From Methanomicrobiales archaeon (GTDB lineage: Archaea > Halobacteriota > Methanomicrobia > Methanomicrobiales > JACTUA01), in contig JARYLJ010000009.1 in NCBI GenBank assembly GCA_029907705.1, positions 1 to 56,465 on the forward strand: a stretch of 56,465 bases of DNA, in the 5' to 3' direction. Below, piece by piece: positions 43,629 through 55,299 of the stretch; within the stretch, counting starts at the first letter, position 1, and the number at the start of each line of letters is the position of its first letter. A program made the translations under genes and the position numbers. Under the pieces are notes generated by a model. It was given only the letters and a program-made list of their open reading frames with translations. It ran no database searches and was not told the DNA's origin.

Positions 43629-43801
43629 GTTGGCTCGTATAATGCCCCGCAGGTCCAGAGGGGGATGGAGGAGGGTATGCCTCGATCGGAAAAGTCGGAC
43701 GACCACGATTTTCGCGCCCTTTGGACCTTTCATCTCATTCCGTTGCGGGAGAATTCGATCATGCATATAACGCATGGTGGAGATACCCTTTCAGGGTGAA
43801 T

Positions 43802-45375
43802 ATGGCGCCGAAGGGGAAACGGAGGGAAGAGAAGCGGCCCGAAGACGCCCGGAAGGATGGGGGGAAGGATGCGCGGCGGGTGAAGGCGGACGAATCCGAT
43901 CTGGATGCGGGTTACTTGAGCCCGATCGCCTCACCGAAGGATCTGAGCCCCAAAAGCATCGTCGATCTGTTGAAGAACAGCAGGTATGCGCAGCTCCTGC
44001 TCCTTCTGACGATCGCCGGCGCGTGCCTCCGGCTCTACAACCTCACCTACAACTCGCTATGGCTCGACGAGGCAGCGACGCTCGACTTCGCCAGGCACTC
44101 CCTCGCAGAGATCTGTGGGCTCGTCGCCGGCGGGGAGTTCAACCCCCCGCTCTTCTACTGGATCGAGCATGCGATGCTCTCCTTCGGCGAGAGCGAGTTC
44201 GTCCTCCGGATCATCCCTGCGATCGCCGGCATCCTCACGATCCCGGTCTTCTACCTGCTGGGAAGGGAGGTACAGGACAGAAATACGGGTCTCGTCGCGG
44301 CGGCGCTCCTCGCGTTCTCGCCGTTCCACCTCTTCTACTCGCAGGAGGCGAGGGCGTACTCGTTCATGCTCCTTCTCCTCTCCCTCGCGTTCCTTTTCTT
44401 CCTCCGCGGAATGAGGTCGGGAGAGTTACGTGAGTGGATCCTCTTCGGTATTATCGCCTCGCTCTCCTTCTGGGTCCATTTCTATGCGCTGGTCCCCGTG
44501 GCGATACTCTTCTCCGTCGCGATCCTGCTGGGACTGGCGGATCTGCGTAAGCAATTCCTGTCGCTGAAAAATGCGATCCTGTCACTCCTTGCCTTCGCCA
44601 TCCTATCGCTTCCCCTCGTCGTCATCGCCGCAGGCCTGTTCGCGAAGAGGACATCCGCACCCCCCACCTACGGAATCCAGGGGTTCGAGGTGATTTACCA
44701 GACGCTGCTCCAGATCTCGGGTTACAACGAATTCGTGATGCCGGCCCTCCTGATCCTCTTCTCACTGGGCATTATCTCGCTACTCCTCGCCGGGGAAGGG
44801 GGGCACGCATCAATGGTGCCATCCTGACGATCCTCTTCTTTCTCCCACTCGTCGTGAGCGTGTACCTCTCCGGCATGATGCCGATGATACCCAGATACCT
44901 GATCTATCTCCTCGCCTTCTACTTCCCTGGAATTGCGGTCTGCATCAGATACGCCTATGGGATCATCGGTGCCAGAGTTGCGGTCTATCTCGCGCTCTTC
45001 CTTCTGATCCTCGCCGCTCTTCCATTCTATGCCGGTTACTACACCGCCTACTCGAAGGAGGACTGGCGGGGCTTTGCCGGCGTTCTCGCCAACAGGACAG
45101 CGGACGGCGATATCGTCGTCGCCGCACCCGGTTACATGAGGCAGTCCCTCGACTACTACTACCACAACGCGACCGACCGGACACTGGAATTTGGGGCGAA
45201 CAACGCACTGGAGCTTCAGGCGATCAGGAACGCGCACCCGGTGAGGGGGCTCTTCGTGGTAGTGACCGGCGACATACATGCAGCGAACCCGGAGGGGGAC
45301 GCATTGAAATGGATGGAGGAGCACACGACCCTTGCGAGCCGCTATACAGGCATCTACCTGTTCGTGACGAAATGA
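43802..45375 (+). pseudogene. GT-C membrane glycosyltransferase (GT39/ArnT-like), frameshifted
   Basis: Read across a frameshift, this would be a ~520-residue polytopic transferase using a lipid-linked sugar. The first part has a charged N-terminus, a transmembrane helix, the catalytic-loop motif NSLWLDEAATLDFA and FNPPLFYWIEH, and many further helices. That frame stops at 44827. The downstream frame carries on the same protein (GAILTILFFLPLVVSVYLSGMMP ...) to 45375. The shift falls at the six-G run 44798-44803; one additional G would restore the frame. It may be a decayed gene, a sequencing error, phase variation or ribosomal frameshifting. ATG 43802 follows AGGGTGAAT and a TATA-like GCATATAAC. 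Confidence 0.75.
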
Positions 45376-45460: not shown

Positions 45461-46510
45461 ATGATAGAGGCGCTGCGGAGGGTGACCGCCGATGCAAAGA
45501 TCAGGGCGGAGATACTGGTGATGGACGACCGCTCCAGAGACGGGACGATACCGATCGTGAGGGAGCTCTCCTCGAAGTATCCAGAGGTCCGGCTGATCGT
45601 GAGGGAGCGGGACTTCGGGCTCTCGCAGTCCGTCGTGGAAGGTTTCAGGGCCGCGCATTCGGAGGTCTTATTGGTCATCGATGCGGACTTCTCGCATCCG
45701 CCCGAGCTGGTGCCGGTGCTTTACCGCGAGATCCTGGATGGCAGCGACATCGCCATCGGAAGCCGATATCTGCCGGGCGGGTCCATCGAGCAATGGCCAC
45801 TGAAGAGACGGATCATCTCCATCGGGGCGACGTTCCTCGCCCGGATCCTCGTGCCGGAGGTGTCAGATCCGGTGAGCGGTTTCTTCGCGCTCCGGAGAGG
45901 TGTCCTGGAGGATGCGGAGCTCCGCCCGCGGGGGTACAAGATCCTGCTGGAGGTGCTCGGGAAGAGCAGGTGGCAGCGGGTGAGGGAGATCCCTTACGTC
46001 TTCAGGGACCGGCGGACGGGAACGAGCAAGCTGAAGGGAGCGACGATCCTCGACTATGCCTTCCAGGTGCTGGATATCGCGTTGTATGCTCTGAGGCGCA
46101 GGAATACGGCGGTCTGGATGGAGTGGAGGCAGGCATTCAGGTACGGACTCGTCGGGCTCTCCGGTATCATCGTGAACATGGGGGTGCTCTATTATTTAAC
46201 GGAGAGGGTGGGCCTCTATTACCTCCTCTCCAGCCTGGTCGCCATCGAGCTCTCCATCCTGAGTAACTTCATCCTGAACGACCTCTGGACATTCAGGGAG
46301 AGGAGAGAGATCGCCTCTCCGAACCGGGTGAAGAGGGCGTTTGCATTCCACCTGGTCTCCGCCGGCGGACTCGTCATCAACTGGAGCATCCTCTTCTCCC
46401 TGACGGAGTATGCGGGATTTTACTATCTGCACTCCAATCTGATCGGAATACTCGCCGGCTTCATCTGGAACTACCTGGTGAACCGGCATTATACATGGAG
46501 CAAGAGATAG
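45461..46510 (+). CDS. GT2 dolichyl/polyprenyl-phosphate glycosyltransferase with GtrA-like membrane domain, N-terminus out of frame
   Basis: The 349-residue part shown has a GT-A fold with DDRSRDGT, DADFSHPPE, GSRYLPGG, and DPVSGFFALRR. A GtrA-like membrane domain of four helices follows (about residues 215-345, with FILNDLWTFRERRE and the final NRHYTW). It should load a sugar on a polyprenyl phosphate. The first strand (PLTVIISTFNEEENIG) is encoded in the same frame just upstream, from about 45407. No start codon exists in that frame. The natural start, ATG 45372 overlapping the preceding stop, is one base out of phase; one additional C in the CCCC at 45405-45408 would join them. Confidence 0.72.
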   Translation: MIEALRRVTADAKIRAEILVMDDRSRDGTIPIVRELSSKYPEVRLIVRERDFGLSQSVVEGFRAAHSEVLLVIDADFSHPPELVPVLYREILDGSDIAIGSRYLPGGSIEQWPLKRRIISIGATFLARILVPEVSDPVSGFFALRRGVLEDAELRPRGYKILLEVLGKSRWQRVREIPYVFRDRRTGTSKLKGATILDYAFQVLDIALYALRRRNTAVWMEWRQAFRYGLVGLSGIIVNMGVLYYLTERVGLYYLLSSLVAIELSILSNFILNDLWTFRERREIASPNRVKRAFAFHLVSAGGLVINWSILFSLTEYAGFYYLHSNLIGILAGFIWNYLVNRHYTWSKR

Positions 46511-48177: not shown

Positions 48178-48756
48178 TCAACCTTTTTCACCGGAGTTCA
48201 ACTTTGGGACGTAACCCTCCAGCAGCCCGATCGCCTCCTGCTCTCTCGGGCCTCCGCAGCGCTGGATGATAGCGATGTGGTGATGGATGAGGCGCCGCAG
48301 CTCCTCATTTCGAGTGAGGGAGTACCTCGTCGCATGCACCGTGGCCTCGATGACACTGTTGAAACCCCTGTTCACCGGGCGCACCCTCCGGTCCAGCACC
48401 TCCTCTTTCAACAGTGAGAGCACGACTCCCAGTGCGGTCTTCGAGGCATGCTCCACCTCCGCTTGGAAGGCAACCCACGCCTCCACCCCCCTCAGCCGGT
48501 GCATCGTCAATCCCGCCACCTCCTCCTCCACGAAGGCATCCGGAGGGAGATCTTCGAAGGCGGTCCGCACATAGAGCACGGGATCGAATACGAGGTTCGC
48601 TACGATCCATCCCTCTCTCTCAACGTTCTCTGCCGTGTGGCTCCCCCGGTAGATGACCATGGAGTACCGGCCGCCCCTCCGGATGATCCCCATCGGCGCC
48701 GCATTGAAGCGCGTGGTCGCGATGACCTCGCTGATCCCCTCGTCTAGGAGTCCCAT
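48178..48756 (-). CDS. DUF447 family protein (putative FMN-binding split barrel)
   Basis: The 192-residue product matches the archaeal DUF447 pattern: ISEVIATTRFNAAPMGIIRRG near the N-terminus, an IYRGSHTAENV segment, ANLVFDPVLYVRTAF, and a C-terminal helical part. The fold resembles flavin-reductase split barrels. The function is not established. I recall this family and the CitG-like family also appearing among archaeal-like C1-cofactor genes of methylotrophic bacteria. Its start overlaps the CitG-like stop by 13 nt, and it is the last gene of a four-gene operon. Confidence 0.75.
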   Translation of the reverse strand: MGLLDEGISEVIATTRFNAAPMGIIRRGGRYSMVIYRGSHTAENVEREGWIVANLVFDPVLYVRTAFEDLPPDAFVEEEVAGLTMHRLRGVEAWVAFQAEVEHASKTALGVVLSLLKEEVLDRRVRPVNRGFNSVIEATVHATRYSLTRNEELRRLIHHHIAIIQRCGGPREQEAIGLLEGYVPKLNSGEKG

Positions 48757-49556
48757 TCCCAGCCCTCTCCGAGGGCGACGTAGATGGAGGCGATGAGTAT
48801 GTCCGCGAGGGAGCCCGGGTTAATCCCTTTGGATACGAGCCTCTGATCCAGCATCTCCAGCGTGATCTTTCCCGCCTTCGCCTCCTGTGCGAGGGACATC
48901 ACCTCCAGCGCCACCTCGCGGCCATGCTTCTTGATGACGAAGGTGTCCGGTTCGGAGGCGAGCATCTCGAGGAACGTCGCCACGATCGCTTTGCGGCCGG
49001 AGCCATGCTGCTTCAGAAGGTCGGCGCCCTTTCTGGTGAGCCTGAAACTGTCTGTCCACTCCCGTGCGACCATGTCGGTGGGGGCAGAGTGCACCATGAT
49101 GTCGAAGAGGGAAAGACCCCGCTCCCTGATGATCTCAGTCGCCCTCGGGTTGTGGACATCGAGCGGATCGGTCTTGTGCATCCGCACGCTCGTCAGGTCG
49201 AAGGACTCGTAGAAGTCGACCGCGTCCTGCACGGTCGTGGCCCTGACCAGGCGCGCCGCCCCACCGATGTCCCTGCCCACGACGAGCGGGATCAATAGGA
49301 TGAATGCACCGAAATGGGTGTTCCCGCCCGAATGGACGTTCGTGGCCGCGATCGCCTCCCTGAAGAGCTCTCCTATTGCAACTCCCCCCTCCTGCGCCCG
49401 ATGGAGGGTGGGTCCGGCAAGAATGGCGGAGGCGAGAAAGTGCTCCAGGTGCGTGGAGGGGTAATCATGGCATCTGTCCACATTGCCCGGCTTCGGGTAG
49501 GCGGTCACCTCCAGCATCATCGCCATCTGTGCACGGATCGCAGGCTCCATGCTCAT
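48744..49556 (-). CDS. Triphosphoribosyl-dephospho-CoA synthase-like protein (CitG/MdcB family)
   Basis: The 270-residue all-helical protein has CitG signatures: LEVTAYPKPGNVDRCHDY (the first part binds substrate phosphate), ATNVHSGGNTHFGAF, DTFVIKKHG and KGINPGSLADIL. CitG makes the prosthetic-group precursor of citrate lyase from ATP and dephospho-CoA, but methanogens lack citrate lyase. The archaeal homologue probably acts in another cofactor pathway. ATG 49556 forms an ATGA overlap with the marker-9 stop, and ATG 49550 is also possible. Confidence 0.85.
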   Translation of the reverse strand: MSMEPAIRAQMAMMLEVTAYPKPGNVDRCHDYPSTHLEHFLASAILAGPTLHRAQEGGVAIGELFREAIAATNVHSGGNTHFGAFILLIPLVVGRDIGGAARLVRATTVQDAVDFYESFDLTSVRMHKTDPLDVHNPRATEIIRERGLSLFDIMVHSAPTDMVAREWTDSFRLTRKGADLLKQHGSGRKAIVATFLEMLASEPDTFVIKKHGREVALEVMSLAQEAKAGKITLEMLDQRLVSKGINPGSLADILIASIYVALGEGWEWDS

Positions 49557-50722
49557 CTGCCCCCAAATATGTGATTCATCAGCAGATCGGAGAGGCGTCT
49601 CTTCTCCCGCATGTAGTTCTGGACGGAAAGCCCCTTGCTCTTCAGTGTCGCGTCCCGGAGCATGCAGGGCGATGTGGCCTTGCAGCACCATGCGAGGGAG
49701 CCGAAGCAGGTGAGATCGCCATTCTCCAGTACCGTGCCTGCGACCGCCTCCTGCTTCATCCTCACATAGTCCTCCTTCTTCAGCCCCACCTCCTTCAAAA
49801 AGAGTATCAGGGGGCAGTTCTTCACCGGCAGGCAGCAGAAGGTGAGTGCCCGGATATCCCCTCCCCTGCAGAGCTGCTTCGGGGCGTTGTACCATCCGAA
49901 CTCATCCGCATACCTGGCGATGGCCGCATCGAGGCCCGCGAGCGTGCCTGCATCGGAGCGCCTCGCGATGGAGACCAGGTCCGCACCGTGGGAGAACATC
50001 TGCATCATGCAGTCGTAGCTCCAGATGGAGTTGTTGGCGATGAGGAGAGATGGGCATACGTTCCTGATGCGCTTCAGCTTTCTGTGGCCCTCGTCCATCA
50101 GGTCCACATGGATAATGTCCGCCCCCGCCTTCCAGAGGTCACGGGCGAGCGCCGGGTCGGAGTCCGCGACCCCGACCCTGATCTTCACCGAGACCGTCAC
50201 TCCCTCCTTCTTCATCCGTCGGACAACGTTTCCGAGTGCATCGGGATGCCGCAGATAGTACTCCCCGCTACCAGCCTCGATCACCGGTTCCTGTCGGCAG
50301 TGTGCATCGATCTCGTATATCGCGTCGTTACCCAGGGCATCGACCACCTGAAGGAATGATTCAGGTTCACTTCCCCGGAGGTTCACACCTGCCACGACGT
50401 CGCTTCCCTGGAACCTTCGCACCTGCTCACTGATCTCGGCGATGGGATCGTCGGGGAGGAACTCCTTCCTCCCCTGTGCGGTCATCTCCTCGCTCGCCCT
50501 GATCGTCGCCCTGTCGATGGAGTAACCCCCGATGAACCCTGCACCGATATGCGCGGCCCGCCCGAGCACGTACGAAGCGTCCACGATCCCTGCCATCGAT
50601 GCGATGGCGATCGGGGACTTCAGCAGATGCCCGTTCACGCGGAGGCAGAACCGCTCCTCTGCGGCACTCATGGATTCTTTATTATTCTCGTCCATACACA
50701 ATATCTGTTGCGCATCGCTCAT
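49553..50722 (-). CDS. Methanogenesis marker protein 9 (dihydrouridine-synthase-like barrel plus Cys-rich domain)
   Basis: The 389-residue protein has an N-terminal TIM barrel like dihydrouridine synthase or dihydroorotate dehydrogenase (SPIAIASMAGIVDASYV, GVNLRGSEPESF, VKIRVGVADSDPAL, ADIIHVDLMDEGH). The C-terminal marker-9 domain is rich in Cys: RALTFCCLPVKNCPL, CFGSLAWCCKATSPCMLRD. The family is restricted to methanogens; its reaction is unknown. The cysteines could hold an iron-sulfur cluster. ATG 50722 overlaps the nuclease stop as ATGA, with GGGAG upstream; ATG 50695 and 50671 are alternatives. Confidence 0.88.
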   Translation of the reverse strand: MSDAQQILCMDENNKESMSAAEERFCLRVNGHLLKSPIAIASMAGIVDASYVLGRAAHIGAGFIGGYSIDRATIRASEEMTAQGRKEFLPDDPIAEISEQVRRFQGSDVVAGVNLRGSEPESFLQVVDALGNDAIYEIDAHCRQEPVIEAGSGEYYLRHPDALGNVVRRMKKEGVTVSVKIRVGVADSDPALARDLWKAGADIIHVDLMDEGHRKLKRIRNVCPSLLIANNSIWSYDCMMQMFSHGADLVSIARRSDAGTLAGLDAAIARYADEFGWYNAPKQLCRGGDIRALTFCCLPVKNCPLILFLKEVGLKKEDYVRMKQEAVAGTVLENGDLTCFGSLAWCCKATSPCMLRDATLKSKGLSVQNYMREKRRLSDLLMNHIFGGR

Positions 50723-51195
50723 CCGGTATCTCCCGTGGAATCCTCGAGCTCGCCCAGCACATAGGCCTCGCCGCTCCTCCCGAGTGGTATCGCGCCCCTT
50801 GCATCCTCGAGACCGATCCCCTGCGTGCTCCTGTAGAGCGCGAGGAGCCTGCTCCACGGCACCAGGTACGCCTCCCGCGTCCTTCCGCTCCCGAACCTGA
50901 ACTCGATCGCGAGGTAGCCCCTCCTGCCCGTACGCCCGAGGAAGGTGGTGATGAAATCGATCTGATGCACATTATCCCGGTTGTTGTGGAAGTGCTGCGT
51001 GAAGTAGAGCTTCTTCCCCTTGATGGACTTGCATTCGATCGCGAGATAATAGCGGGGATCGAGGGAGTCGACCAGCACATCGACGAGCTGCGTGCTGAAC
51101 TTGTGCTGCTTCAGGCGGTATGCAAAACCCCTGATACGATGCTCCTCGAAGAAACGGTTGAGGCACTGGACGACGTCCCGCTCGAAGTCGCTCAT
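50719..51195 (-). CDS. PD-(D/E)XK nuclease-like protein
   Basis: The 158-residue protein shows an N-terminal helix with Glu5, then VDVLVDS (Asp39) and YYLAIECKS (Glu54, Lys56). This is the D...ExK arrangement of PD-(D/E)XK nucleases such as archaeal Holliday-junction resolvases. A conserved THFLGRTG-like loop (FITTFLGRTGRRGYLAIEF) follows. The DNA or RNA target is unknown. It is the first gene of the marker-9 operon and is transcribed from a region shared with cfbA. Its presence in a cofactor-type operon is unexpected. Confidence 0.7.
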   Translation of the reverse strand: MSDFERDVVQCLNRFFEEHRIRGFAYRLKQHKFSTQLVDVLVDSLDPRYYLAIECKSIKGKKLYFTQHFHNNRDNVHQIDFITTFLGRTGRRGYLAIEFRFGSGRTREAYLVPWSRLLALYRSTQGIGLEDARGAIPLGRSGEAYVLGELEDSTGDTG

Positions 51196-51272: not shown

Positions 51273-51677
51273 ATGGGCAAGAAAGGTTTGTTACTGATCG
51301 GTCATGGCAGCAGACTCCCCTTCAACCGATCGCTCGTCGAGGAGACGGCGAAACTGATGGCCGCGATAGATCCCGAGTACGTCATCAGGGTCGCCTTCAT
51401 GGAGCGGGATACCCCCAACATCCGGGAGGCACTGGAGGCATTCCGGAGGGAGGAGATCGAGATGCTGGTGGCGGTGCCGCTCTTCCTCGCAAAAGGGGTG
51501 CATATCCTCAAGGACATCCCGGAAGAACTGGGGCTCGAAGACGGCGGAAAGAGGGGTACCTTCAGGATAGATGACAGAGAGATTCCGCTGATCTACGCCG
51601 ATCCGATCGGTAACGACCCGCTGCTGGCGCAGCTGATGCTGAAGAACGCGAGGGATGCAATCCAGCGCTTCTCGTAA
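51273..51677 (+). CDS. cfbA: Sirohydrochlorin nickelochelatase (small CbiX)
   Basis: CfbA inserts nickel in sirohydrochlorin, the first dedicated step of coenzyme F430 synthesis; the same small CbiX type also acts with cobalt. The 134-residue product has the metal-site histidines His11 (LIGHGSR) and His77 (LAKGVHILKDIP). It is the first gene of the F430 operon; cfbE follows after 6 nt. The context with cfbE, cfbD and cfbB makes the nickel role likely. Confidence 0.92.
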   Translation: MGKKGLLLIGHGSRLPFNRSLVEETAKLMAAIDPEYVIRVAFMERDTPNIREALEAFRREEIEMLVAVPLFLAKGVHILKDIPEELGLEDGGKRGTFRIDDREIPLIYADPIGNDPLLAQLMLKNARDAIQRFS

Positions 51678-51683
51678 CAGAAT

Positions 51684-52850
51684 ATGGAGATCCTGGTGCT
51701 CGACACGATCCATGGCGGGAGGGAGCTCGCACGTGCGCTGGAGGAGATGGGCCATGACGTGGAGGCGATCGATGTCTATCGCGGTAAAGCCACGCCGGGG
51801 CTCGGGCACTATGACATGATCGTCGCCCCCGTCCACCTGGACCCGGAGAACCCCGCGCTACTTACCCCTTCGACGAAGCGGATCACCCACCATCAGGCGG
51901 TCGCATGGGTGCTCTGGGATACGATCCCGCACCCGATGGTGGAGGTGACGGGTGCGAAGGGGAAGACGACCACCGCGCATGCACTCGCATCCCTGATGAA
52001 GGGCAGGGGTGTGCTGCACACCTCCATGGGGACGTTCAGGTATCCGGAGCGATCCCTCCTCTGGCGCTCTTCCATCACCCCTGCCTCCCTCATTTCGGCA
52101 GCGAGGGCAGCATGGGAGATGAAGGGATGGCTGATCGCAGAGGTCTCGCTCGGCGTGAGCGGGATCGGGGATATGGCGATACTGACCTCCATCGACGATT
52201 ACCCGATCGCCGGAGGTGCGAGGCGTGCGATCGATGCGAAGCTCGGAACCCTCGCGGAGGCATCTCAAGTGGTGATGCCATCGGAGCACGAAGGTGCACC
52301 GGAGTACGCGATCGGTGTGGAGGCGGTGACGAAGGTGGAGGGGAGCACCTGCTTCTTTGCCTGGGGCGGCCGGGAGGGTGCATATACGAACCCCCTGCTC
52401 CTCCTCGAGGGCTACCGTCTCCCGCTCAGGCTCGCGACCACGGCCGCCTGCCTGCTCGGGATCGACCCATCGCCGCTCGGGCATTTTCAGGCGCTCGAGG
52501 GAAGGATGTCGCTCAGGCGGGAGGGGGATATCCTGATCGTGGACAACTCAAACAGCGGCACCTGCAGGGAGACCACACTGGAGGCGGTGGAGTATGCCCG
52601 CACGCTCACGGGCAACCAGGCGGTCACGCTCGTCATCGGCGAGGAGGCACGCGCCATCTGCGAGGGCTTCGCCGCTGAGGAGATCGCGAGGACGATCGCT
52701 TATGTGCGTCCGGGTCAGGTGATACTCGTGGGGCATATGATGGGTCTACCGGGATACGAGCAGGTGGCCACGCTCGACGAGGGGTTGAAGAGAGCCAGGG
52801 CGGTCGCCACCGGGGGGAGCATCGTCCTTGCGGTCAAGACATGGAGGTGA
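51684..52850 (+). CDS. cfbE: Coenzyme F430 synthetase (Mur ligase family)
   Basis: CfbE closes the final gamma-lactam/carbocyclic step, turning 15,17(3)-seco-F430-17(3)-acid into F430 with ATP. The 388-residue Mur-ligase-type protein has the P-loop VTGAKGKTTT (88-97), EVSLGVSGIGD, and VDNSNSGTCRETTLEAVEYA, where other Mur ligases have the DxYAHNP-type loop. It lies between cfbA and cfbD and is translationally linked to both. Confidence 0.92.
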   Translation: MEILVLDTIHGGRELARALEEMGHDVEAIDVYRGKATPGLGHYDMIVAPVHLDPENPALLTPSTKRITHHQAVAWVLWDTIPHPMVEVTGAKGKTTTAHALASLMKGRGVLHTSMGTFRYPERSLLWRSSITPASLISAARAAWEMKGWLIAEVSLGVSGIGDMAILTSIDDYPIAGGARRAIDAKLGTLAEASQVVMPSEHEGAPEYAIGVEAVTKVEGSTCFFAWGGREGAYTNPLLLLEGYRLPLRLATTAACLLGIDPSPLGHFQALEGRMSLRREGDILIVDNSNSGTCRETTLEAVEYARTLTGNQAVTLVIGEEARAICEGFAAEEIARTIAYVRPGQVILVGHMMGLPGYEQVATLDEGLKRARAVATGGSIVLAVKTWR

Positions 52851-52852
52851 GG

Positions 52853-53917
52853 ATGGAGTACATACAGCCCCGCCCGAGTTCCATCGTCGCTGCCCTCTAT
52901 ACGGCGAGGGACCTCGAGGTGGATGTGGCGATCTTGCATGGGCCATCGGGCTGCTCCTTCAAGCATGCCCGCCTTCTCGAAGAGGACGGGATGCGGGTGC
53001 TCACCACCTCGCTCAGTGACAACGAGTTCATCTTCGGCGGGCAGGCGCCGCTCGTCAGGGTGCTCCGTTACGCGGAGGAGCACTTCTCCCCCTCGAGGAT
53101 GGCGGTGATCGCCACCTGCGTCTCCATGATCATCGGCGAAGACCTGGAGGCGGCGGTCGCGCAGTCGGGTGTGCATGTCCCCACCATCGCGGTCTCCATC
53201 CACGCGGGCTTCAGGGAGAACATCGCGGGTGTGATCGCGGCGCTGGAGGCGGCGGAGCGGGCAGGCTGGATTCCGGCAGGAGAACTCGAGCGGCAGCGCC
53301 ACCTTCTGGAGAGGGCGAACGAGGTGGAGCGCCTGAGAGGTGCCGCATACAGGCCCTACATCGAGCCCTCGAGGGGCGATCTGAAGCATGTGGTGGCGGA
53401 GCGGCTACTCTCGCTGGTGGATAGCGGAAAAAGGGGTGTTGCGATCCTGAATGCGAAGAAGGAGACCGCGTACATGTTCGCGGACGTGCTCATCGCACTC
53501 CACGAATGCAGGCCGGAGGCGGAGATCGCATATGCAGCGAATCTGGAGCGGCGCGGGCTCCCGAAGGTGCAGAGGGACGCAGAGAGGATCCATGCAGGTA
53601 TGAAGGGGAGGGGGCTCGATCCCCTCCTGAAGGGTGCGCTCGACGAATACGGGGCGACGGGTGATCTCCTCGGGCACTGGATCCGCGAGGAGGGCCCGGA
53701 TTTCGCACTCCTCGTCGGAGTACCCCATGCGATCCCGCCGGAATACACCTGTGGAGTCGAGGTCTTCTCGGTCACGAACGGCCCGAGGCAGGTGGAGCCA
53801 CTCCGCTCCCTCGGCCACCGGCACGTGGTCGTAGAGCTGGACCTCCACCCGAAGACCCTCGGGATCAGGAAGATCGCGGAGAGCGAGTTCGGCGCCGTGA
53901 TGAGGAGCCTCCGATGA
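52853..53917 (+). CDS. cfbD: Ni-sirohydrochlorin a,c-diamide reductive cyclase, catalytic subunit (NifD-like)
   Basis: CfbD with the reductase CfbC reduces and cyclises Ni-sirohydrochlorin a,c-diamide, a nitrogenase-like reaction. The 354-residue product has NifD/K-like topology with cysteines in ILHGPSGCSF and VIATCVSMIIGED that fit iron-sulfur ligation, and STVGVPHAIPPEYT-type later segments (LLVGVPHAIPPEYTCGVEVF). ATG 52853 follows a perfect GGAGGTGA site; ATG 52841 is also in frame but lacks one. The usual partner gene cfbC (NifH-like) is not in this window. Confidence 0.92.
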   Translation: MEYIQPRPSSIVAALYTARDLEVDVAILHGPSGCSFKHARLLEEDGMRVLTTSLSDNEFIFGGQAPLVRVLRYAEEHFSPSRMAVIATCVSMIIGEDLEAAVAQSGVHVPTIAVSIHAGFRENIAGVIAALEAAERAGWIPAGELERQRHLLERANEVERLRGAAYRPYIEPSRGDLKHVVAERLLSLVDSGKRGVAILNAKKETAYMFADVLIALHECRPEAEIAYAANLERRGLPKVQRDAERIHAGMKGRGLDPLLKGALDEYGATGDLLGHWIREEGPDFALLVGVPHAIPPEYTCGVEVFSVTNGPRQVEPLRSLGHRHVVVELDLHPKTLGIRKIAESEFGAVMRSLR

Positions 53918-55299
53918 AGGCGCTCATGATCGCGGCCGACAGGTCGGGTGCGGGGAAGACCAGCATCAGCGTGGGTATCGCCGCCCTCCTTTCCACCCGC
54001 TGCGAGGTCCAGACCTTCAAGGTCGGCATGGACTACATCGATCCCTCCTACCTCGGTGCCGCCACCGGGAGGCCCTGCAGGAACCTGGACGGCTTTGTGA
54101 TGAGCCGCGACGAGATACGGGCGATCGTGGATCATGCCTGCGAGGGGGCAGACGTGATGCTCGTCGAGGGCGTGAGGGGGCTATACGAAGGGGCGGATGC
54201 GATCGCGGATACAGGCTCCAGCGCAGAGATCGCGAAGCTCCTGGGTATTCCGGTGGTGCTCGTGGTGAATGCGCGGAGCATCACGAGGAGCGCGGCGGCA
54301 CTCGTGAAGGGCTTCGTCTCCTTCGATCCCCAGGTGAGGATCGCAGGTGTGATCCTGAACAACATCGGCGGCCGATCGCACCGGGAGAAGGCGACGCAGG
54401 CGATAGAGCATATCTGCGGGATCCCTGTGATCGGCTCCATACCGCAGCACCGCGAGATGGAGCTGGAGATGCGCCATCTGGGCCTCGTCCCCTTCATGGA
54501 GAAGAGGTCGAGACAGTCCCATGAACCTGTGAGGAAGATCGCAAACGTGGTGGACCAGCACCTCGATCTCGGACGATTGCTCTCCTGTGCGGGCGAGTAC
54601 CTGCCCGAGACATGGCAGAGGGATTACTTCGCGAAGGGCAGGGAGACGGACGTCAGGATCGGGATCGCGCTGGACGAGGCCTTCAACTTCTACTATGCCG
54701 ATCTCTTCGACGTCCTCTCCGCACTGGGGGCGGAGTGCGTCGGCTGGAGCCCCGTGCACGGGCGGCCGCCGGAGGCAGAGGGCTACATATTTGGCGGGGG
54801 TTATCCGGAGGTCTTCGCCTCCGAGCTGGAAGCGAACGATGCCGCGAGGGAGGCGATGAGGGAGCTCGCGGCGAAGGGCACTCCCATCTATGCGGAGTGC
54901 GGGGGGCTCATGTACCTGACGGAGCGGATGGAGGTGACGAGGGATTTCCACGGCCTCGAGGCGGGAGGGTCCTTCGGGATGTGCGGCGTCTTTGCAGGCG
55001 AGACCATCCTTCCGGCGCGCCGCGTCGTCTCGTATGTCGAAGGGACGAGCTGCCCGGAGAGCCCTCTGGGGACAGGATCGTTCAGGGGCCACGAGTTCCA
55101 CTACAGCGAGGTGAGGCTCGCAAAGGAGACGAAGTACTGTTACAGGCTCGTACGGGGCGAAGGGATCAGCGGCGGAGACGATGGCGCCCTGAAGGAGAGG
55201 ACACTCGGTGCATACACGCACCTCTCCCCTGTCCCTTCCTTTATGATGCTCTCCCACTTCGTCTCCCTCTGCAGAATGCAACAGGGGAGGGGGGGCTGA
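53914..55299 (+). CDS. cfbB: Ni-sirohydrochlorin a,c-diamide synthase (CobB/CbiA family)
   Basis: CfbB amidates the a and c acetate side chains of Ni-sirohydrochlorin using glutamine and ATP. The 461-residue protein has an N-terminal dethiobiotin-synthetase-like ATPase domain (AADRSGAGKTS, residues 7-17; VGMDYIDPSYL). The C-terminal class I glutaminase has nucleophile Cys329 in YAECGGLMYL, and a late His in GHEFHYSE and THLS. The start overlaps cfbD by 4 nt (ATGA). It ends the operon, with a T7 run after the stop. Confidence 0.92.
   Translation: MKALMIAADRSGAGKTSISVGIAALLSTRCEVQTFKVGMDYIDPSYLGAATGRPCRNLDGFVMSRDEIRAIVDHACEGADVMLVEGVRGLYEGADAIADTGSSAEIAKLLGIPVVLVVNARSITRSAAALVKGFVSFDPQVRIAGVILNNIGGRSHREKATQAIEHICGIPVIGSIPQHREMELEMRHLGLVPFMEKRSRQSHEPVRKIANVVDQHLDLGRLLSCAGEYLPETWQRDYFAKGRETDVRIGIALDEAFNFYYADLFDVLSALGAECVGWSPVHGRPPEAEGYIFGGGYPEVFASELEANDAAREAMRELAAKGTPIYAECGGLMYLTERMEVTRDFHGLEAGGSFGMCGVFAGETILPARRVVSYVEGTSCPESPLGTGSFRGHEFHYSEVRLAKETKYCYRLVRGEGISGGDDGALKERTLGAYTHLSPVPSFMMLSHFVSLCRMQQGRGG

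Follow-up and report, generated by a model that had tools for sequence, protein, structure and literature searches.

Two genes of a Methanomicrobiales archaeon, encoding a CitG-like protein and a DUF447 protein, very probably belong to the pathway of tetrahydromethanopterin (H4MPT). They lie on the minus strand of a 56,465-nucleotide stretch, contig JARYLJ010000009.1 of assembly GCA_029907705.1, the whole of which is referred to here as the window. The CitG-like gene (48744..49556, about 270 aa, PF01874) is followed by the DUF447 gene (48178..48756, 192 aa, PF04289/PF20766). It is supported that the cofactor concerned is H4MPT, or a modified pterin of that kind, and not methanofuran. That the two proteins perform unassigned steps of the side-chain pathway fed by MptG, with DUF447 opening a ring and the CitG-like protein adding a ribosyl group, was given about an even chance.

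MptG is ribofuranosylaminobenzene 5'-phosphate (RFAP) synthase, which catalyzes the first committed step of H4MPT synthesis. Its distribution was compared with that of the two families in 60 genomes of the window's phylum, 14 named controls and 79 genomes outside the phylum; the type labels used for genomes (haloarchaeal, Archaeoglobus, methanogen) were inferred from relatedness, placement in the tree and the genes present. Outside the phylum, DUF447 and MptG over its cut-off agreed in 79 of 79 genomes, 41 having both and 38 neither (13 and 38 when the uniform Thermococcales are left out); because these genomes are related to one another, Fisher values calculated on them overstate independence. 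Among the controls, DUF447 and MptG matched the same four species, M. jannaschii, H. volcanii, S. acidocaldarius and M. acetivorans, and CitG matched these four and E. coli, where the match is the true citG.

Within the phylum, DUF447 was detected in 56 genomes and CitG in 59, while MptG was found in 59/60 at a loose threshold and in 55/60 over the curated cut-off. CitG followed MptG less strictly outside the phylum (36 genomes with both, 6 with CitG only, 5 with MptG only, 32 with neither), and one of the six CitG-only genomes was a Clostridium. MptG-like, CitG-like and DUF447 genes were kept in the haloarchaeal-type genomes G018, G028, G053 and L104 and in H. volcanii. All three were lost jointly in the haloarchaeal-type G008 (99% complete, 3 contigs), which is of the same family as G028. 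The Methanomassiliicoccales genomes tested also lacked DUF447, CitG and MptG, with one sub-threshold DUF447 match in G067; these methanogens are reported to be without the CO2-reduction pathway (PMC4153887).

Clustering with known H4MPT genes was observed in unrelated lineages, namely Thermoproteota, UBA186, the methanogen G001 and proteobacterial plasmids. The neighbors in these archaea and bacterial islands were MptG, a dihydropteroate synthase (DHPS)-like protein, dihydromethanopterin reductase, Mch, Mtd and Fae. In two Thermoproteota loci (L255, L265), the order was DHPS-like (DUF6513), Dmr-type flavoprotein, MptG and DUF447; a third (L266) contained the same four genes, with DUF447 and MptG on the opposite strand. 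The UBA186 locus (L256) read flavoprotein, DHPS-like, DUF447, MptG. In the methanogen locus L244, methanogenesis marker 9, CitG and DUF447 were followed by a dihydromethanopterin reductase (TIGR02700, 286 bits, above the cut-off), with the DHPS-like gene two genes further.

On plasmids of Phyllobacterium, Azospirillum, Aquabacterium, Thiodictyon, Paraburkholderia and Rhizobium, the CitG-like gene lies in MptG-mtdB-mch islands, where mch and a RimK-type ligase precede it; DUF447 stands beside DUF6513 in Phyllobacterium and Aquabacterium. Judged by the Phyllobacterium gene order and not by sequence, the CitG-like protein corresponds to Orf7 and DUF447 to Orf19 of the methylotroph cluster (Methylorubrum, Methylosinus), whose islands read mch-orf5-orf7-fae and orf19-orf20-afpA-orf21-orf22 (PMC3615186). 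These bacteria differ from the window in having neither the CitG-DUF447 adjacency nor marker 9, and their cofactor, dephospho-H4MPT (dH4MPT), differs from H4MPT in being without the phosphate and the hydroxyglutarate. That methylotroph H4MPT islands contain these genes has been described before, and PMC9635834, citing Adam 2019, notes that auxiliary genes without a known function (DUFs) accompany the H4MPT branch.

The same bacterial islands also hold the methylofuran genes (MfnB and the MyfA/MyfB region), and the cluster genes are all reported essential for growth on methanol (PMC8141765), both of which would also suit a role of the module in methanofuran synthesis, for example in a side-chain or condensation step. 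MfnB (PF04476), however, was missing in H. volcanii, in S. acidocaldarius and in seven genomes retaining the pair together with MptG homologues, two of these seven MptG matches falling below the curated cut-off. Since the pair is kept where methanofuran synthesis is absent, it serves H4MPT rather than methanofuran. In addition, DUF447 follows MptG without exception outside the phylum, and its operon partners in archaea are MptG, the DHPS-like protein and Dmr rather than Mfn genes. A methanofuran role was rejected on the distribution of MfnB and is considered improbable.

In the window, the pair is preceded on the same strand by two further genes, a PD-(D/E)XK (Hjc-like) nuclease homologue (50719..51195, 158 aa), which is the first gene of the local operon, and methanogenesis marker 9 (49553..50722, 389 aa), a Dus-like flavin mononucleotide (FMN) TIM-barrel with a Cys-rich C-terminal TIGR03277 part. 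As the original prediction had described, the four genes overlap, by 4 nt (ATGA), 4 nt (ATGA) and 13 nt in the order nuclease, marker 9, CitG-like, DUF447, and all are on the minus strand. It had further proposed that they form one pathway, perhaps making or attaching a C1-carrier cofactor; this held for the CitG-like protein and DUF447, which cluster with H4MPT genes, so that the cofactor is narrowed to H4MPT, and failed for the nuclease.

The suggested survey of neighbor conservation separated the four genes in the same way. CitG and then DUF447 were adjacent, on the same strand and in the same order, in 50 of the 56 phylum genomes having both, and marker 9 stood directly upstream of CitG in all 26 genomes in which it had a full-length match over the cut-off; the CitG-DUF447 linkage exceeds chance. 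The nuclease was present at this position in two of eight loci of the same order by tblastn, the window and G049 (63% identity). From these counts and from the restriction of the nuclease to G049 and the window, the conserved unit is (marker 9)-CitG-DUF447, with the nuclease outside it. The CitG-DUF447 pair persists without the nuclease and marker 9 in Archaeoglobus-type and haloarchaeal genomes.

In the window, start and stop codons overlap throughout the four genes; this and the resemblance of marker 9 to Dus could be taken to indicate an RNA/DNA maintenance operon in which CitG and DUF447 are incidental. This is very improbable, as the nuclease is missing at six of the eight same-order loci, marker 9 scores far under the DusB equivalog cut-off (22.5 vs 293 bits), and the pair occurs together without both. 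The nuclease itself matched Hjc PF01870 marginally (22.8 bits, cut-off 21.1) and did not reach the Hjc equivalog NF040854 (17.5 vs 70 bits), and its D..E-x-K motif (VDVLVDSLDPRYYLAIECK) appeared intact by eye. It was rejected as an operon member, being absent at 6/8 same-order loci, and is probably a local passenger that is not part of the conserved module.

Marker 9 matched methan_mark_9 TIGR03277 with 153.6 bits (cut-off 96.2) over its C-terminal 108 residues, and its N-terminal part is a Dus-like TIM-barrel (PF01207, 26.5 bits, cut-off 20.4); besides DusB, it also fell short of the MJ0144-type equivalog TIGR00736 (116 vs 218.7 bits). The protein thus meets the known TIGR03277 model, and its constant position directly upstream of CitG-DUF447 in the sampled phylum genomes is shown here. 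Elsewhere in the phylum there was no full-length match, only six weak hits unlinked to CitG. Marker 9 was confined to methanogenic-looking genomes, with no search made in Methanomassiliicoccales, and non-methanogenic archaea and bacteria carry the module without it. It is regarded as a methanogen-specific FMN/Cys-rich partner of the module.

The CitG-like protein matched Pfam CitG (PF01874) over its full length with 220 bits. Like CitG/MdcB, the triphosphoribosyl-dephospho-CoA (coenzyme A) synthase, it retains the core residues (E15, PG22-23, N78, G82, D203, PG246-247, A250 and D251 in window numbering), and the alpha-phosphoribosyl transfer proposed for it is of the CitG kind. On dephospho-CoA, CitG itself builds a 5-triphosphoribosyl group in alpha linkage, with ATP as the source. 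The match and the shared residues, and the automatic product name carried by its relatives on bacterial plasmids, would favor a true triphosphoribosyl-dephospho-CoA synthase serving an acyl-carrier lyase, as public annotation has it. In contrast, the CitG/MdcB equivalogs were far from reached (36.2 vs 272.3, 39.2 vs 280 and 22.9 vs 282 bits), and where two citrate-type sequences read PGL, the C1-type CitG reads KPGN.

The tree separated the C1-linked CitG of archaea and methylotrophs from E. coli CitG and a Clostridium sequence by a long branch with 100/100 support; this outgroup consists of two rows, both long-branched, and the gene context of the Clostridium sequence was not established. E. 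coli citG sits with the citrate lyase genes (citCDEFXG), whereas near the CitG-like gene neither the window nor the bacterial islands contained citrate or malonate lyase genes; its partners in the islands are H4MPT genes. The CoA/lyase role was rejected on equivalog scores, tree and neighbors, and there is very little chance that it is correct. Of the precursors that had originally been considered, a CoA-derived one was accordingly not borne out, while phosphoribosyl transfer remains likely, the pair clustering with MptG and H4MPT genes. In five plasmid records (L103, L105, L309-L311), the CitG-like protein of the H4MPT island is annotated as triphosphoribosyl-dephospho-CoA synthase, which is probably a misleading name there.

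The DUF447 protein scored 95.5 bits against PF04289 and 74.8 bits against PF20766 (cut-offs 24 and 24.8). Beyond its own family, the family profile matched FMN-binding flavin reductases in the PDB weakly (1eje, E=0.0026; 2d36, E=0.008), and several members matched Flavin_Reduct weakly, below the cut-off. The resemblance to FMN flavin reductases of the split-barrel type is weak but consistent across these profile comparisons. Structures PDB 2nr4, 2iml, 2ptf and 3b5m belong to the same family by sequence (E 1e-35 to 3e-8), and FMN is reported in some of these entries. In the literature searched, no function is assigned to these proteins; here, DUF447 is tied to MptG by co-occurrence and operons.

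The side chain of H4MPT contains a 1-deoxyribitol, formed when the MptG ribofuranose is opened reductively, and an alpha-ribofuranosyl-5-phosphate that is joined to 2-hydroxyglutarate as a diester. This alpha-ribosyl-5-phosphate diester tail mirrors the prosthetic group of citrate lyase made by CitG and CitX. In the proposed sequence, MptG, the known enzyme, joins phosphoribosyl pyrophosphate (PRPP) to the aromatic acid. DUF447 would then act as an FMN split-barrel reductase, delivering hydride to the benzylic carbon and opening the ribofuranose to 1-deoxyribitol, and a para-amino group would help to expel the ring oxygen. That DUF447 follows MptG everywhere outside the phylum, including in bacteria and archaea without marker 9, is in keeping with a role in the core reductive step. 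With ATP (or PRPP) as donor, the CitG-like protein would then place a (tri)phosphoribosyl group in alpha configuration on the 5-OH of deoxyribitol, as CitG does on dephospho-CoA, which would yield the ribosyl phosphate of H4MPT. Where the full cofactor is made, a further enzyme, a nucleotidyltransferase, may link 2-hydroxyglutarate to the 5-phosphate, much as CitX makes its linkage to a serine. The exact step of each enzyme, the donor and the order are inferred, and confidence in them ranges from tentative to evenly balanced.

In G048 (L276 2810-4339), MptG is fused to a chorismate-lyase domain (PF01947), and because of this fusion 4-hydroxybenzoate would fit as the aromatic substrate of MptG. 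Long MptG frames of 510-560 aa were seen in G000, G003, G049 and others of the window's order, which suggests that they carry the same putative fusion. A second, weak MptG paralogue (60-82 bits) occurs in the same-order genomes G000, G003, G013, G023, G033, G042 and G049, and G056 has the paralogue only.

The roles could also be distributed differently within the same pathway: DUF447 might reduce a dihydropterin or another intermediate, marker 9 might open the ring in methanogens, and the CitG-like protein might transfer the first or another phosphoribosyl group. Consistent with this, the methanogen operon contains, in marker 9, another protein of the FMN type, DUF447 often adjoins a Dmr-type flavoprotein, and CitG persists without MptG in some archaea. 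However, marker 9 was not found in Archaeoglobus-type genomes, haloarchaea and the Sulfolobus control, all of which keep MptG and DUF447, and it therefore cannot be the general ring-opening enzyme; dihydropterin reduction, moreover, already has a dedicated neighbor (TIGR02700). Such a redistribution was judged rather unlikely, though the most plausible of the alternatives.

A nucleotidyltransferase family (PF01909, weak) was found in CitG/DUF447 neighborhoods of Bathyarchaeota and Heimdallarchaeota, and in Asgard, Bathyarchaeota and Thermoproteota its members show linkage with CitG or DUF447 (G000 C55:29438-30277; L271, L274, L275, L289-L291). All tested genomes of Thermoproteota, Bathyarchaeota and Asgard that carry CitG had it, as did 17/17 tested genomes of methanogen or Archaeoglobus type. 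Among the genomes tested, it was absent from haloarchaeal types, Thermococcales, Thermoplasmata, Methanomassiliicoccales and CitG-less Thermoproteota. In G149, its neighbors are CitG on one side and, on the other, an MptN-like glutamate ligase adjoining Mch. Distribution and position would suit a CitX-like enzyme that transfers 2-hydroxyglutarate.

Three observations count against the CitX-like role: in methanogens the gene adjoins a YrdC/Sua5 gene and not CitG, its matches there score far lower, and several small phylum genomes with CitG are without it. A PDB profile search with the family gave no match. A full two-step of the CitG/CitX kind, akin to the maturation of citrate lyase, in which the CitG-like protein uses ATP to form an alpha-(5-triphosphoribosyl) pterin, to which the nucleotidyltransferase couples 2-hydroxyglutarate with loss of pyrophosphate, is put forward as a fairly unlikely idea, which includes haloarchaea (with MptG-like, CitG-like and DUF447 proteins, reportedly Mch, and no nucleotidyltransferase) still making a methanopterin-like C1 carrier. 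Locus L290 of G149 combines CitG and the nucleotidyltransferase with Mch and with ligases of the CofE-like and MptN-like types, MptG and DUF447 being absent, and in Bathyarchaeota (L274, L275) an energy-coupling factor (ECF) transporter S component adjoins CitG. These gene sets possibly represent uptake and completion of a cofactor precursor.

Several observations weigh against the proposed roles of DUF447 and the CitG-like protein. CitG occurred without MptG and DUF447 in three Bathyarchaeota and two Thermoproteota, and was missing from the Thermoplasmata G061-G063 and G065 and from G075, all with MptG and DUF447. The one-contig genome G056 has the pair and only the weak MptG paralogue (76 bits), and DUF447 was not found in the fragmented genomes G017, G037 and G045, which have MptG and CitG. 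AlphaFold models made from single sequences were too poor and were left unused, both for DUF447 (pLDDT, the predicted local distance difference test, 46) and for marker 9 (pLDDT 35). As to the donor, White is said to have proposed PRPP as the source of the ribose in 1996, whereas CitG uses ATP.

The modified folates of Thermococcales are reported to carry poly-N-acetylglucosamine (poly-GlcNAc) in place of the ribosyl group, and because of this structure it was recorded beforehand that Thermococcales would have MptG and DUF447 and no CitG. The prediction failed, as CitG was present in all Thermococcales tested; an error must therefore lie in the reported structure, in the assignment or in the assumption that CitG functions uniformly. 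Haloarchaea, finally, are thought to use folate (PMC8305020). Since they nevertheless keep the module, its product need not be H4MPT itself, and haloarchaea may make a methanopterin-like carrier.

Other features of the window were recognized by eye. Divergent from the operon are the coenzyme F430 genes cfbA, cfbE, cfbD and cfbB (51273-55299, plus strand), an arrangement preserved in every same-order locus examined; in the larger same-order loci, the gene order was kept, and throughout the order the F430 genes lay upstream in divergent orientation. On the plus strand also lie a frame resembling membrane glycosyltransferases (43721-44827) and a glycosyltransferase of the dolichol-phosphate type that carries a GtrA-like tail (45461-46510).

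The folate-like H4MPT serves as C1 carrier in every CO2-reducing methanogen, in anaerobic methane oxidizers and in many methylotrophs, and, as far as the literature searched goes, several steps of its side chain are without assigned enzymes. In that literature, with incomplete journal coverage, neither a functional assignment for DUF447, C1-linked CitG or Orf7/Orf19 nor a step assignment for DUF447 and C1-linked CitG was found. If the proposed roles are true, two side-chain steps would gain enzymes, the widespread product name of H4MPT-island CitG-like proteins would be corrected, and candidate targets against methane formation would be available. The nature of the C1 carrier of haloarchaea and Thermococcales would then become a directly testable question.

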